A DNA stretch of 46,642 nucleotides from Pseudobdellovibrionaceae bacterium (lineage in GTDB: Bacteria; Bdellovibrionota; Bdellovibrionia; Bdellovibrionales; Bdellovibrionaceae): positions 1-46,642 of the forward strand of contig JAKFYD010000043.1 of the NCBI GenBank assembly GCA_021731025.1. Reading direction: 5' to 3'. A model generated the notes under the pieces. The model ran no database searches and was not told the origin of the DNA. It saw only the letters and a program-made list of their open reading frames with translations. A program made the translations under genes and the position numbers. Shown one piece after another: positions 5,126 to 9,603 of the stretch. The first letter of the stretch is position 1. Every line of letters starts with the position of its first letter.

Positions 5126-5322
5126 CGACTTCCCTTCGGAAAACTCGACTTTTAAATTGAATACTTTTTGAAGATTTAGCTTGGGAAAAAGGCCAGACCT
5201 TGGACTTGAACCTCCTGGAAGCTTTTGGGGCCTAAGCTTTGGCGGGAAAACTCGACTTAAGAAAGCACTTGTTAAAACCGAGAACTCAAGGTCAAGCCGA
5301 CTTCAAGATTCAAGGAGGATCT

Positions 5323-6105
5323 ATGAAAACCATGATTCCAATTTATTTATTGCTGGCCATACTTTCACTGACTTTGGCCACTTCCTGCGCCCGCAAGGGT
5401 TTCGAGACATCCCAGCTTTCAAAAACAACCGACGAAAATAACGGCAATGGAAATGGGAATAACCCACCCGCTGGGCCCAGCGATCTTGCCGAGCAAATCA
5501 GCAACTTGGATATGAGGTCTTATGTGGCTGATGGAGGTTTTGGCAGCGCTGACCCTATGACCGACCCAAATCCTGTGACCGATTTAGACAAAACAGGTTC
5601 CGGCCAATTAGTGATTCGCTTACCCCTCGGAGTCTCATCGATCTTTTCAGTCGGAGCCGGTGGAACGCATCAAAAATACAAAGACATCACCTTCGCGATC
5701 GAGGGAAACTTAAAAACGGGCTATCGCCTTGTTGTCAAAATTCCTCTTAAGTACATCCTTAGAACCGAACAGTTTGAGACTGCTGCACCCGGTCGTCTTC
5801 CCAATGGAGATGCAATTCCCGCCATCCCCTCGGGAGAGCTTCCCCGACTGGATATCACGGTCAATCCTAACAAAAAGGAAAAGGTCTATCTCTACTTGAA
5901 CAAGAATTTCGTCGGTATTCTTTTCGAGTCCAAATTCGACCCTGGCTTTGATTTGAAATATAATCTGACCGACCAAAACCGACTTAATACCTTGGGCCAC
6001 TTTTACCTGATGCAGGCTAAGAATAACGCCCCCGCCGCCTTCATGGTTTTGTTCCCGATTTCAGACGAAGTTTCGACCTTATTGGACAAGTACTTCCTGA
6101 AGTAA
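5323..6105 (+). CDS. Lipoprotein with Asn/Gly-rich linker, unknown function
   Basis: 260 residues. The ATG at 5323 is preceded by AAGGAGGA. The signal peptide ends in a lipobox (LATSC) with the lipidated cysteine at residue 22. A flexible Asn-Gly-Pro linker (NGNGNGNNPPAGPSD) then leads to a folded domain of roughly 200 residues without recognisable motifs. The region starting DMRSYVADGG to the end is rich in beta-strand patterns. Such linker-bearing lipoproteins are frequent in Bdellovibrio envelopes. It stands alone between a divergent unit and the histone-like gene, with a hairpin after it. Confidence 0.75.
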   Translation: MKTMIPIYLLLAILSLTLATSCARKGFETSQLSKTTDENNGNGNGNNPPAGPSDLAEQISNLDMRSYVADGGFGSADPMTDPNPVTDLDKTGSGQLVIRLPLGVSSIFSVGAGGTHQKYKDITFAIEGNLKTGYRLVVKIPLKYILRTEQFETAAPGRLPNGDAIPAIPSGELPRLDITVNPNKKEKVYLYLNKNFVGILFESKFDPGFDLKYNLTDQNRLNTLGHFYLMQAKNNAPAAFMVLFPISDEVSTLLDKYFLK

Positions 6106-6130
6106 ATAAAACTGATTGAAAATATTTGCC

Positions 6131-6175
6131 TGACCCTCTGATTATCGATAATCTCAGGGGGTCATTCCAATTTTT
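6131..6175 (+). terminator. Probable terminator after the lipoprotein gene
   Basis: GACCCTCTGATTATC (from 6132) pairs with GATAATCTCAGGGGGTC (6147-6163), with a small bulge, and is followed by CATTCCAATTTTTATT. The hairpin is about 25 nt after the stop codon. Confidence 0.65.
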
Positions 6176-6189
6176 ATTAAGGAGTCCCC

Positions 6190-6669
6190 ATGGCGAAAGC
6201 TAAGAAAAAAACCACCGCTAAAAAAGCAAAAAAGAAAGTAACTAAGAAAGCAGCTCCTAAAAAAGCTACGAAGAGCACGAAGAAAAAGTCGACTCCTAAA
6301 AAGGCGACGAAAAAATCAGCTTCGAAAGCTAAATCGAAGAGCACAAAAAAAGCGACGAAAAAATCCAGCGCAAAGAAATCGTCTCCTAAAAAATCAAAGA
6401 AATCTTCTCTGGCTGGTGGAGCTGCAGGCGCCATTGGTTCGCGAGGTAATGATTCTTTAGATGATCTTTCTAAAGAGTTCGATGATGAAGGCGAGATGGA
6501 TACCATGGTGGGCTTAGATGATGAGCCAAGTCCCGAGGAAGATGACAACTGGGAAAGTGCCGAAGAAGAGATTGGCAGCGCTACAGTCACAAGTGATGAT
6601 GACGATTCCGATGACCTCGATAAAGATGATGACGACGATCTCGATGATGGAGAAGAAGGCTACTTCTAA
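6190..6669 (+). CDS. Histone H1-like lysine-rich protein with acidic tail
   Basis: 159 residues with sharply divided charge. Residues 1 to about 75 are almost only Lys, Ala, Ser and Thr in repeats such as KKATKK and KKSAS, like the C-terminal tail of eukaryotic H1 and bacterial H1-like proteins (HctB, AlgP class). After a short Gly/Ala hinge (AGGAAGAIGSRG) the rest is dominated by Asp and Glu, ending in long acidic runs and EEGYF. The first half should bind DNA or RNA non-specifically; the acidic half could mask it or bind basic partners. The ATG at 6190 follows AAGGAG. Its own promoter region and terminator suggest independent expression. Function beyond nucleic-acid binding is inference. 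Confidence 0.8.
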   Translation: MAKAKKKTTAKKAKKKVTKKAAPKKATKSTKKKSTPKKATKKSASKAKSKSTKKATKKSSAKKSSPKKSKKSSLAGGAAGAIGSRGNDSLDDLSKEFDDEGEMDTMVGLDDEPSPEEDDNWESAEEEIGSATVTSDDDDSDDLDKDDDDDLDDGEEGYF

Positions 6670-6703: not shown

Positions 6704-6732
6704 AAAGCCGCTCCTTTGAGCGGCTTTTTTTG
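6704..6732 (+). terminator. Rho-independent terminator of the histone-like gene
   Basis: AAAGCCGCTC (6704-6713), loop CTTT, GAGCGGCTTT (6718-6727), then a T run to about 6732. Confidence 0.92.
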
Positions 6733-6822
6733 TTTTAGCCCCTAACCTCTACTGATTTTTTTTATCTTTGACATGAACCCCAAGCTGGACGATTTTTTAA
6801 ATGATTCTTCAAGGGGGTGAAT

Positions 6823-7423: not shown

Positions 7424-8497
7424 TTATTTAAGTGGTTTTGTGTGCACAGCGAATTTTTCGAATTCTCCGTACTCGTGCAGTTTATTGTAAAGCGTTTTGA
7501 TGGTAATTCCCAAGTTGTTAGCAGCTTGAGTTTTGTTCCCACCGAAGTGACCTAAAGCTTTCAAAATGTAACGCTTTTCAATTTCATGCAATGTGATTTG
7601 TGGATCATATTCCATCGAGTCCTGAACTTTTTCAGGCATGCGAATATGCTCTGGCAAATCATTCATCATGATTTGATGGCCTTCCGATAAAATTTGTAAA
7701 CGTTCGCAAACATTTTGAAGTTCACGAATATTTCCTGGCCATTCGTATTTCAACAGCGCCGTCATTGCTTCTTCGGAAACTGTACGACCACGATTCAAAT
7801 AAGCATGTTGCGAACTATTCAAAAAGTGATTGATCAATGCAGGAATATCTTCCTTGCGTCGGCGCAAAGGCGGAGCACTGACAACAATCGTGTTAATACG
7901 GTAGAAGAGATCTTCGCGGAAATTACCTCTTTGAACTTCAACATCCAATTCACGATTGGTTGCTGAAAGTAATCGGATGTCGACTTTCACAGGATCTTTA
8001 CCGCCAACACGGTAGATTTCACCTTCTTGAAGGAAGCGCAATAATTTTGATTGAATACCGGGAGCGAGCTCACCAATTTCATCCAAGAACAAAGTTCCAC
8101 CATTAGCAACTTCAGCTAATCCAGTTTTTTTCGTGTAGGCTCCTGTGAAAGAACCTTTTTCATGTCCAAACAACTCGCTCTCGAGAAGAGTCTCTCGTAA
8201 AGCACCACAGTTGATAGCAACAAAGGGTTTATTTTTTCGGTTTGAACGATCATGAACCGCGCGAGCGATCAATTCTTTACCTGTTCCAGACTCACCCATG
8301 ATCAGGATGTTGGCTTGCGAAGGAGCTACGCGATCAATCATCTTGATCAAGTTTCCCATCACTTCTGATTGATAGATGATTTGTTTACCAGCGTCTTGTA
8401 CCAAAGGCTTAGCGACTGGAGCATTTCCCCAAGTCATTTGTCCTGAGTTTTGACTCGATGGTAATACAGTGGTCGAGGAATTAGAATTCTCGTTCAT
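7424..8497 (-). CDS. Sigma-54-dependent activator lacking a regulatory domain
   Basis: 357 residues from the ATG at 8497, which follows AAAGGCGGAACGT. The AAA+ core shows Walker A GESGTGKE (68-75), the sigma-54 contact loop as GSFTGA (115-120; the usual form is GAFTGA), Walker B GTLFLDEIGEL and the R-finger region (FREDLFYRINT). A Fis-type helix-turn-helix closes the protein (NKTQAANNLGITIKTLYNKL). Only about 45 mostly polar residues precede the core, so there is no receiver, GAF or PAS domain; control would have to come from its level or a partner, as in PspF-type activators. Target promoters are not evident here. Confidence 0.9.
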   Translation of the reverse strand: MNENSNSSTTVLPSSQNSGQMTWGNAPVAKPLVQDAGKQIIYQSEVMGNLIKMIDRVAPSQANILIMGESGTGKELIARAVHDRSNRKNKPFVAINCGALRETLLESELFGHEKGSFTGAYTKKTGLAEVANGGTLFLDEIGELAPGIQSKLLRFLQEGEIYRVGGKDPVKVDIRLLSATNRELDVEVQRGNFREDLFYRINTIVVSAPPLRRRKEDIPALINHFLNSSQHAYLNRGRTVSEEAMTALLKYEWPGNIRELQNVCERLQILSEGHQIMMNDLPEHIRMPEKVQDSMEYDPQITLHEIEKRYILKALGHFGGNKTQAANNLGITIKTLYNKLHEYGEFEKFAVHTKPLK

Positions 8498-8614
8498 ACG
8501 TTCCGCCTTTCGAATTAAGATGTAAGAGCAGAGGGCCAAAGTGAGGGTGGTATCGACGTTCAACTTCCAGCTACGTTCAGCCGTCTCACTTTGAAACACT
8601 GCGTTATGTAGTGC

Positions 8615-8644
8615 AATATATACGAGGTCCTGTGTTTTTTTCAA
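8615..8644 (-). promoter_or_regulatory. Possible sigma-70-type promoter of the activator gene
   Basis: On the minus strand TTGAAA (8644-8639) and TATATT (8620-8615) are 18 bases apart and point at the activator gene, giving a leader of about 110 nt. An overlapping TATATA would give a 16-base spacing. Confidence 0.35.
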
Positions 8645-8700
8645 GGAAAATATTGCACAGCATTATATTTTTTCCTTAACAATTGCGAAGGGTCTTCATC

Positions 8701-9603
8701 TTGGCGAAACTGGGCTCACTCGATCTTCCTGACTTAATTTCTAAGTTCCTGAAACGGCTCGAGAACATTGATTCTTGTTCTGTCCATACTTTGATCAGCT
8801 ACCGCAGGGACTTAGAACAGGCTTTTGAGTTAGACCCTGAAAAAATTACCGAATTTTGCCCGCATATTCAGCAAAACCAGCTTCTCACCCGGGCTCGTTT
8901 GGCTCAAAACCGATGGGCCCAGCTGAGCCTTTCGTCGCGGAACCGTAAAACAGCGGTCCTGAAAAGCTTCTTTCATTATCTTTTTGATGAAGAGCTGACC
9001 TCTCAGGATTGGGCCCACTCCTTAGTGAGCCCCAAAGTCCCACAAAAGATTCCTCACTTTATATCTGTCGATGAAGCCTTGGGGGTTTTGCAAACTTTAG
9101 AATCATCTTCCGAGCCCAATACAGAAATTCTGTTTCATCTTCTTTACGGAGGAGGTCTGCGGGTCAGCGAAGCCTGTAACTTAAAGTGGAATAATATCGA
9201 TCGCGAACGGGGCAATATTCGTGTCCTTGGAAAAGGGGGAAAAGAAAGAATGGTTGTTCTTCCTTCGCGCTCCATAGCTGTGCTTCAGCAGAGATTCAAA
9301 TCAGAAATGCCTTCCCCCACCAGCTATCTTTGGGGAAATCAGGCTCTGAATCCGCGAACGGCCTACCAAATGATACGCGATCTGGGTGGAAAAGCAGGGC
9401 TGACTCACCGACTGCATCCCCATGCCTTAAGACATAGCTTTGCAACCCATTTGCTGAGCAGTGGAGCTAATCTGCGAACACTTCAAGAACTGCTCGGGCA
9501 TCAAAGTTTGCAAGCCACTCAAAAATACACTCATTTAGGGATGGATCATCTCGCTCGAGTGATGGAAAAGAGCCATCCCCTTGGTCATAAAAAATCATCT
9601 TAA
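8701..9603 (+). CDS. Xer-type tyrosine recombinase
   Basis: 300 residues. An N-terminal SAM-like core-binding domain (about 1-100) precedes the catalytic domain. All catalytic positions are visible: Arg in GGGLRVSEACNL, Lys in GKGGKERMVVLP, HxxR in HPHALRHSFATHLL, the second His in ELLGHQSLQATQ, and the Tyr nucleophile in KYTHL. XerC/XerD resolve chromosome dimers at dif; which of the two this is cannot be decided here. TTG at 8701 (with GAAGGGTC upstream) gives a family-like start; TTG at 8683 would add six residues. It sits alone, convergent with recO, without integron or phage features, so a housekeeping role is likelier than an integrase. Confidence 0.88.
   Translation: MAKLGSLDLPDLISKFLKRLENIDSCSVHTLISYRRDLEQAFELDPEKITEFCPHIQQNQLLTRARLAQNRWAQLSLSSRNRKTAVLKSFFHYLFDEELTSQDWAHSLVSPKVPQKIPHFISVDEALGVLQTLESSSEPNTEILFHLLYGGGLRVSEACNLKWNNIDRERGNIRVLGKGGKERMVVLPSRSIAVLQQRFKSEMPSPTSYLWGNQALNPRTAYQMIRDLGGKAGLTHRLHPHALRHSFATHLLSSGANLRTLQELLGHQSLQATQKYTHLGMDHLARVMEKSHPLGHKKSS

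Follow-up and report, generated by a model that had tools for sequence, protein, structure and literature searches.

A conserved basic-then-acidic H1-like protein in the Bdellovibrionaceae that may pair nucleic acid binding with a competing and docking acidic tail

The C-terminal domain of AlgP, chlamydial Hc2, and the Burkholderia-type proteins of NF038053 are bacterial H1-like proteins with Lys/Ala-rich, repeat-like basic regions of variable length, and neither a conserved acidic half nor an aromatic C-terminus is mentioned in the parts of their descriptions that were compared. AlgP of Pseudomonas is described as acting on the spacing of polyphosphate granules (PMC9239181). Disordered acidic tails that dock partners or compete with nucleic acid are known from SSB and Hfq: in Hfq, the acidic tip is a competitor of nucleic acid and keeps DNA from aggregating (PMC5606850), and in SSB, no fewer than 17 partners are recruited by an acidic tip of 9 residues (PMC7145534, PMC10018359). 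For Bdellovibrio, a review of the chromosome names HU, IHF, Fis, Dps, and two histones (PMC11318664), and in nucleoid proteomics of the attack phase, the histone Bd0055 and Bd1238 are named as DNA-binding proteins of high abundance (PMC10627809). The term H1-like is absent from the main text of the review as well as from that of the proteomics paper; as is stated for AlgP, Lys-rich proteins are possibly under-counted after trypsin (PMC9239181). A literature search, largely outside subscription journals, revealed no such Bdellovibrio protein in titles or in the opening lines of abstracts.

The window analyzed here, a whole stretch of 46,642 nucleotides of contig JAKFYD010000043.1 from a Pseudobdellovibrionaceae bacterium (GCA_021731025.1), contains a gene for an H1-like protein that has an acidic half in addition to the basic one (Table 1). 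The sequence-only reading had described about 75 Lys/Ala/Ser/Thr residues followed by an Asp/Glu-rich tail, and this was confirmed. Residues 1-74 comprise 34 Lys, 12 Ala, 13 Ser, and 9 Thr without any Asp or Glu (K/A/S/T, 92%), and residues 89-159 comprise 23 Asp and 12 Glu, that is, 35 acidic residues, together with 2 Lys. The net charge is +35 through residue 87 and −34 thereafter. The charge segregation was 69, compared with 37 in the best shuffle, and 0 of 20,000 shuffles reached 69; the bipolar organization is thus borne out by the coordinates, the composition, the charges, and the shuffles. The H1-like character is likewise supported by the Lys/Ala-rich, low-complexity basic region of this protein and its relatives. 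An AlphaFold model from the single sequence (mean pLDDT, 57) was disordered at low confidence, and its sole short helix spans residues 90-97; no fold resembling the globular winged-helix domain of H1 was seen in this low-confidence model. The protein is small and, as far as the model can indicate, probably disordered.

Table 1. Positions of the bipolar gene, its parts, its putative signals, and its neighbors in the window.
Feature	Coordinates	Strand	Basis or remark
Upstream lipoprotein-like neighbor	5239-6105	+	likely start 5323; no Pfam match
Proposed −35 box TTGCCT, vegetative-type promoter	6126-6131	+	conservation upstream of family orthologues
Inverted repeat GACCCTCTGA...TCAGGGGGTC overlapping the promoter	6132-6163	+	0 expected in shuffles
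Proposed −10 box TAATCT, 17-nt spacer	6149-6154	+	pattern scans, conservation
Likely ribosome-binding site AGGAG	6180-6184	+	sequence
Bipolar H1-like protein, CDS with stop	6190-6669	+	159 aa, ATG start
Basic half, Lys/Ala/Ser/Thr, residues 1-73	6190-6408	+	composition
Gly/Ala linker LAGGAAGAIGSRGN, residues 74-87	6409-6450	+	sequence; pLDDT minimum at residues 76-83
Acidic half, residues 88-159	6451-6666	+	composition, charge segregation, alignment
Conserved block SLDDLSKEFDDEGEMDTMVGLDDEP, residues 89-113	6454-6528	+	F97 in 97% of 59 family proteins
Aromatic anchor W121	6550-6552	+	Trp 80%, hydrophobic 97% of 59 family proteins
C-terminal tip EGYF, residues 156-159	6655-6666	+	EGY unvarying in 44/44
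Intrinsic terminator of the bipolar gene	6704-6735	+	hairpin and T-run
Sigma54-activator-type AAA+ protein with Fis-type HTH	7424-8644	−	Pfam
XerC/XerD-type tyrosine recombinase	8683-9603	+	Pfam

Pfam gave no match to the protein at E ≤ 0.01 and only implausible ones up to E 10, no NCBIfam model passed its cut-off, and none of the PDB sequences matched the family profile at E ≤ 0.01. Among individual models, the linker histone H1 domain (PF00538) gave no Pfam match up to E 10, a range in which HMMER filters drop weak matches. The Pfam Hc1 and Hc2 models were absent from the matches of the protein, NF038053 did not match it and stayed below the cut-off in two of the four proteins scanned, and neither the histone fold (PF00808) nor the OB fold (PF00436) was matched. 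The same genome encodes its own SSB on contig C79 and has a weak PF00808 match on contig C23. The best NCBIfam similarity was to NF004560/PRK05901, which we take to be the principal sigma factor of actinobacteria, with E-values of 0.00055 for the window protein and 1.4e-6 for a relative. The scores of 19.1 and 27.7 bits stand against a cut-off of 711, the match covers the first 190 of 516 model positions, and it looks compositional. By this below-cut-off match, the N-terminal region of PRK05901 has a comparable basic-then-acidic composition; however, that region is part of a sigma factor, whereas no sigma domain is present here. Judged from these searches, the protein family is new to Pfam and NCBIfam: the H1-like kind itself is known, and the bipolar, aromatic-tipped form is new.

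The Bdellovibrio histone HBb/Bd0055 belongs to the same phylum and has a presumed role in the nucleoid, but it has a DNA-binding histone fold, for which the bipolar protein gave no match. The tails of SSB and Hfq sit on a folded domain, whereas the present tail is attached to a basic low-complexity block. The acidic run ends in a C-terminal Phe, as in SSB, in 90 of 95 distinct class proteins, but the last residues are EGYF and not of the IPF type found in the SSB of the same genome (GGDEIPF). HMGB1 of eukaryotes has folded HMG boxes, unlike the present protein, which has no credible Pfam domain. The two are alike in that HMGB1 joins a basic DNA-binding part to a disordered autoinhibitory tail (PMC5606850).

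A search with the single sequence matched 47 of the 66 genomes of the bacterial family. With a profile of 44 distinct family proteins (A1) and the reading of loci, orthologues were found in 61 of the 66 genomes. Every copy read was bipolar, which agrees with the expectation of the sequence-only reading that orthologues carry both halves. In one of the 61 (G006), the frame is broken within the basic half. No orthologue was found in G031, G043, G049, G056, and G057, of which G043 and G056 are less than 80% complete. Locus L002, from Bdellovibrionaceae bacterium UBA5009, showed 86% identity over residues 89-116, and it puts the window within or close to the Bdellovibrionaceae. Within its own genome, the protein matched only itself at E-values up to 10. 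An antisense ORF (6177-6590, minus strand) overlaps the Lys-rich coding sequence and is taken as a by-product of the Lys-rich composition. The orthologues of the same architecture, together with the terminator-like hairpin and T-run downstream at 6704-6727, indicate that 6190-6669 is a real gene.

The alignment of the 44 family proteins begins with an unvarying MAK, and its last position is Phe in 42 proteins and Ile in the remaining 2. Among the 59 distinct family proteins, each residue of the final E-G-Y-F is kept in 97-98% (Y, 98%; F, 97%), and a further tail position preceding a Glu is Phe in 71% and hydrophobic in 85%. The hydrophobic positions of these 59 tails are among the best kept, whereas the acidic runs vary in length. 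In the 36 distinct class proteins from other families, the final Y is present in 86% and the final F in 92%, and a V-P-S-L-E-E-I ... N-P-F-like block separates the halves in many. Trp occurs in only 1 of these 36 tails, so that the W anchor is a feature of the family. Every one of the 95 distinct class proteins has a hydrophobic last residue, namely Phe in 90, Ile in 4, and Met in 1, and EGYF is the usual end. The tip codons differ synonymously (GGT/GGC/GGA/GGG, TAC/TAT, and TTC/TTT), which points to selection on the protein.

The 95 class proteins had been selected by a charge filter, and the presence of a tail among them is therefore partly by construction. Two less biased tests were a locus search anchored on the neighboring sigma54 activator and a DNA-level search for the pattern [D/E]EGYF-stop. 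The anchored search used the sigma54-activator protein as the query in 34 class genomes (30 without a profile match and 4 with only a weak one), and the loci were screened for Lys/Arg-rich ORFs only, other Lys/Arg-rich frames being set aside by eye. The locus was found in 19 of the 34 genomes, and an H1-like ORF in 9 of the 19; all nine, including that of G048, which was already known through L151, have an acidic tail with YF as its end. No H1-like ORF was present in the other 10 loci, some of which are on short contigs. In 143 class genomes, the DNA pattern occurred at 85 places in 78 genomes, compared with 21 for the reversed control. By their coordinates, 76 of the 85 places are at the 3' end of a bipolar gene and 9 are elsewhere, two of the latter being second copies just past the stop codon of the bipolar gene (G039 and G061). 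This second EGYF-stop coding copy, immediately downstream of the gene, is in frame in L008 (G061) and out of frame in L044 (G039). In the genome of the window, the pattern occurred once, at the 6190-6669 gene, and the reversed control pattern likewise occurred once. Orthologues without the acidic tail, to which the sequence-only reading had pointed as evidence against itself, were thus sought, and none was found among the 61 family genomes read or the nine ORFs of the anchored search.

The same reading had regarded the two halves as self-complementary, and on this point it was not supported. In the pooled family set, the charges of the basic and acidic halves were correlated with a rho of 0.57 (n = 58), although these values are not independent. 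Across 29 family sister pairs, the charges changed in the same direction in 11, in opposite directions in 12, and uninformatively in 6, with an r through the origin of 0.32. In the other families of the class, rho was 0.25 (n = 35, p = 0.15), and of 17 sister pairs 9 changed in the same direction and 7 in opposite directions. The coefficient of variation there was 0.45 for the basic half and 0.18 for the tail (n = 35); in the family itself the two halves vary equally (0.16 and 0.15). Nine proteins from other families combine a basic half of +61 to +88 with a tail of only −22 to −43. Rows L023 and L095 (f1/class) were dropped from the comparison, and the basic-half values of L119 and L118 are underestimated owing to a late automatic start and a contig end. 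A separate earlier charge comparison gave the same picture as the sister-pair analysis. Charge compensation between the halves was rejected, the sister pairs giving it no backing. Since the charges of the halves do not change together, self-neutralization is probably not the target of selection. As far as these sequences indicate, the tail has the character of a fixed-size module and not of a matched counter-charge, at any rate in the other families of the class, and it is probably the tail size and the hydrophobic anchors that are maintained by selection.

Across the phylum, 188 of 368 genomes, those of the class included, matched at E ≤ 1e-5, and Lys-rich-then-acidic proteins were present in other families. 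Beyond the class, 20 such proteins were read, of which 2 have Phe and 4 have Tyr as the last residue, and neither a sigma54-activator nor a Xer gene was found in their 15 long loci. Because these ends are rare and both neighbor genes are absent, the proteins beyond the class were not counted as orthologues. Eight Lys-rich-then-acidic proteins of family f12 (L128, L130, L132, L133, L134, L137, L138, and L139) have, by eye, a tail motif of approximately (Y/F)G(Y/F)GW(G/D)Y, which differs from the GYF end of the class. Sequences beyond the phylum were covered by one contig scan, which returned one locus in all, and tblastn against viral contigs detected no relative of the protein. Short matches to the basic half only, at 14 loci, were mostly other proteins with Lys-rich stretches on SWIB-like, GroES-like, or peroxiredoxin-like sequences; two (L151 and L153) were true bipolar orthologues. 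The others include a second H1-like family (L140, L141, L142, L143, L144, L149, and L152; open frames of 128-161 aa) with a Lys/Ala-rich N-terminal stretch and, by eye, an apparent SWIB-type domain. Lys-rich H1-like N-terminal extensions were also noted by eye on a GroES-like protein in two genomes (L147 and L148) and on a peroxiredoxin-like protein in one (L146). Another basic-then-acidic protein (L145:2052-2900) continues into a C-terminal part that contains Cys (CKVRDCDQI...CRYHYLLLWKKI).

The promoter assigned to the bipolar gene in Table 1 rests on conservation across the upstream regions of the family. With at most one mismatch allowed, TTGCCT-N17-TAATCT was matched nowhere else in the window, against a chance expectation of 0.52; a generic sigma-70 scan listed other sites and not this one. 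The family form, TTGCC-N18-TANNCT, was perfect in 28 of 56 upstream regions compared with 0 of 1,120 shuffles, and it was present with at most two mismatches in all 56 compared with 193 of 1,120 shuffles, although it was derived from the same, mutually related sequences on which it was scored. The attack-phase FliA consensus is reported as TTAAG-N16-CCGATA (PMC3627812). In 44 of the 56 upstream regions, at least 4 of its 11 positions are mismatched, and it occurred with at most two mismatches in 5 of 56 compared with 14 of 1,120 shuffles, so that there may be a few FliA-type exceptions among the family orthologues. From its sequence, the promoter looks vegetative and not of the attack-phase FliA type, and the link to the predatory attack phase suggested by the sequence-only reading is weakened accordingly. 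An attack-phase role may still hold, because about one third of the mapped attack-phase promoters (48 of 140) are reported to have no FliA box (PMC3627812).

The inverted repeat that overlaps the promoter has a similar and perfect counterpart at the same position, and only there, in all four genomes of genus g4 scanned. By eye, it is missing in other genera; genus g4, L007, and L151 have repeats of differing sequence in this position. An operator is the less likely reading because the register shifts between genera, many genera have no repeat, and a T-rich stretch follows; these features make an overlapping terminator of the upstream gene the simpler reading, and the repeat is probably its stem. 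Terminator-like sites numbered 3 in a 900-base stretch against 1.0 expected, and hairpins with T-runs comparable to that downstream of the bipolar gene were seen by eye after many of the family orthologues.

Neighboring genes were counted in 46 class loci of at least 7 kb holding an orthologue (24 from the family and 22 from the rest of the class). A sigma54-activator gene was nearby in 31 of these (15/24 and 16/22, respectively), and a XerC/D gene in 27 (14/24 and 13/22). Relatives of the lipoprotein-like gene were found in 10 of the 24 family loci and 5 of the 22 others, and also in many shorter loci, with identities of 24-36%. At 5257-5283, approximately 40 nt ahead of the likely start of this gene, there is a FliA consensus with one mismatch (TTAAG-N16-CCGAGA); with up to three mismatches, the consensus has 136 matches in the window compared with 112 expected. 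On this sequence evidence, the lipoprotein-like neighbor may be under attack-phase control.

Rather than simply condensing DNA, the protein would, as the sequence data suggest, bind the chromosome and carry its own brake and a hook for docking. The reading that we tentatively prefer by analogy, at somewhat less than an even chance, is that of an H1-like protein binding nucleic acid, with an acidic tail that acts as a competitor of DNA and, in the manner of SSB, also as a docking site for a partner. It would be a nucleoid protein of the H1-like kind, Lys/Ala-rich and disordered, whose basic half and acidic tail make up a single unit. On the analogy with other H1-like proteins, the basic half most likely binds nucleic acid, and it would bind DNA (or RNA) regardless of sequence. 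Like the acidic tip of Hfq, the tail probably competes for the lysines, and its competition with nucleic acid would keep binding loose and reversible and would prevent aggregation. The anchors F97 and W121, the F-E-D-L-like block of the relatives, and the end ...DGEEGYF probably serve, like the SSB tip, to dock a partner, which would be a folded one. The partners of SSB need not recognize this tip, because it ends in GYF and not in the IPF of the SSB of the same genome.

This preferred reading is consistent with a bipolar orthologue in each of 61 of the 66 family genomes, with the hydrophobic last residue in 95 of 95 class proteins and the placement of 76 of 85 [D/E]EGYF-stop sites at a bipolar gene, with well-kept hydrophobic positions beside variable acidic runs, with the greater variation of the basic half outside the family, and with a model that is disordered except for one short helix; the Hfq (PMC5606850) and SSB (PMC7145534, PMC10018359) accounts supply precedents. 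Against it, H1-like regions can serve other polyanions, as described for AlgP (PMC9239181), the anchors differ between families with Trp absent from 35 of 36 other class tails, and the nucleoid proteomics names Bd0055 and Bd1238 rather than an H1-like protein (PMC10627809). A more far-reaching version, which we consider doubtful, is a class-wide chromatin protein that combines an H1-like DNA-condensing block with an SSB-tail-like recruitment hook, docking of which would free the lysines from autoinhibition. A pure polyelectrolyte device in line with the sequence-only reading, in which the tail is only a counter-charge, the diblock self-neutralizes or phase-separates with DNA, and the details of the tail sequence are irrelevant, would account for the near-perfect neutrality of the window protein, the predicted disorder, the pooled family correlation, and the weak positive r over the family sister pairs. 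It is nevertheless unlikely: the sister pairs disagree in direction, the nine strongly basic class proteins have tails far too small to balance them, and the strictly kept anchors and tip are not needed for a counter-charge.

The tip could also be a degradation signal by which a Lon- or ClpXP-like protease clears the protein at a phase change of the life cycle. Such an arrangement, a disordered protein whose hydrophobic C-terminus is conserved, is common among degrons, and the second EGYF-stop just past the first in two genomes fits it as well, but the other conserved anchors of the tail are left unexplained and we regard a degron as decidedly unlikely. In eukaryotes, core histones are bound by acidic arms that carry aromatic anchors, and on this precedent the tail might be a chaperone-like arm that couples delivery of the Bd0055/HBb family histone to DNA. 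PF00808 was matched at E ≤ 0.01 in 63 of the 66 family genomes; however, G031, G049, G056, and G057 have a histone match with no bipolar gene found, many of the histone matches are weak, and 97 of 368 phylum genomes pass the family cut-off while that of the window fails. The co-occurrence is uninformative since both genes are near-universal in the family, and a chaperone-like arm appears very unlikely. A target other than the chromosome, either another polyanion or a machine (polyphosphate granules, ribosomes, or RNA polymerase), has AlgP as a precedent (PMC9239181) and could draw on the similarity to NF004560, as the acidic disordered residues 132-179 of M. tuberculosis SigA are reported to be required for its function (PMC10011835). 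That similarity is far below the cut-off and compositional-looking, a sigma domain is absent, and such a target is quite unlikely.

If the class-wide chromatin reading were true, the acidic tail, with its aromatic anchors and its nearly constant GYF end, would recruit the histone HBb or some specific enzyme to the nucleoid. The protein also offers a clean test case for the control of disordered diblock proteins, in which point mutations of the tip and anchors would separate the effect of charge from that of docking. According to a review, further, as yet unidentified proteins may share in the packing of the Bdellovibrio chromosome (PMC11318664). The bipolar protein is a conserved candidate for a part in the packing and unpacking of this chromosome, and it has no Pfam or NCBIfam name.
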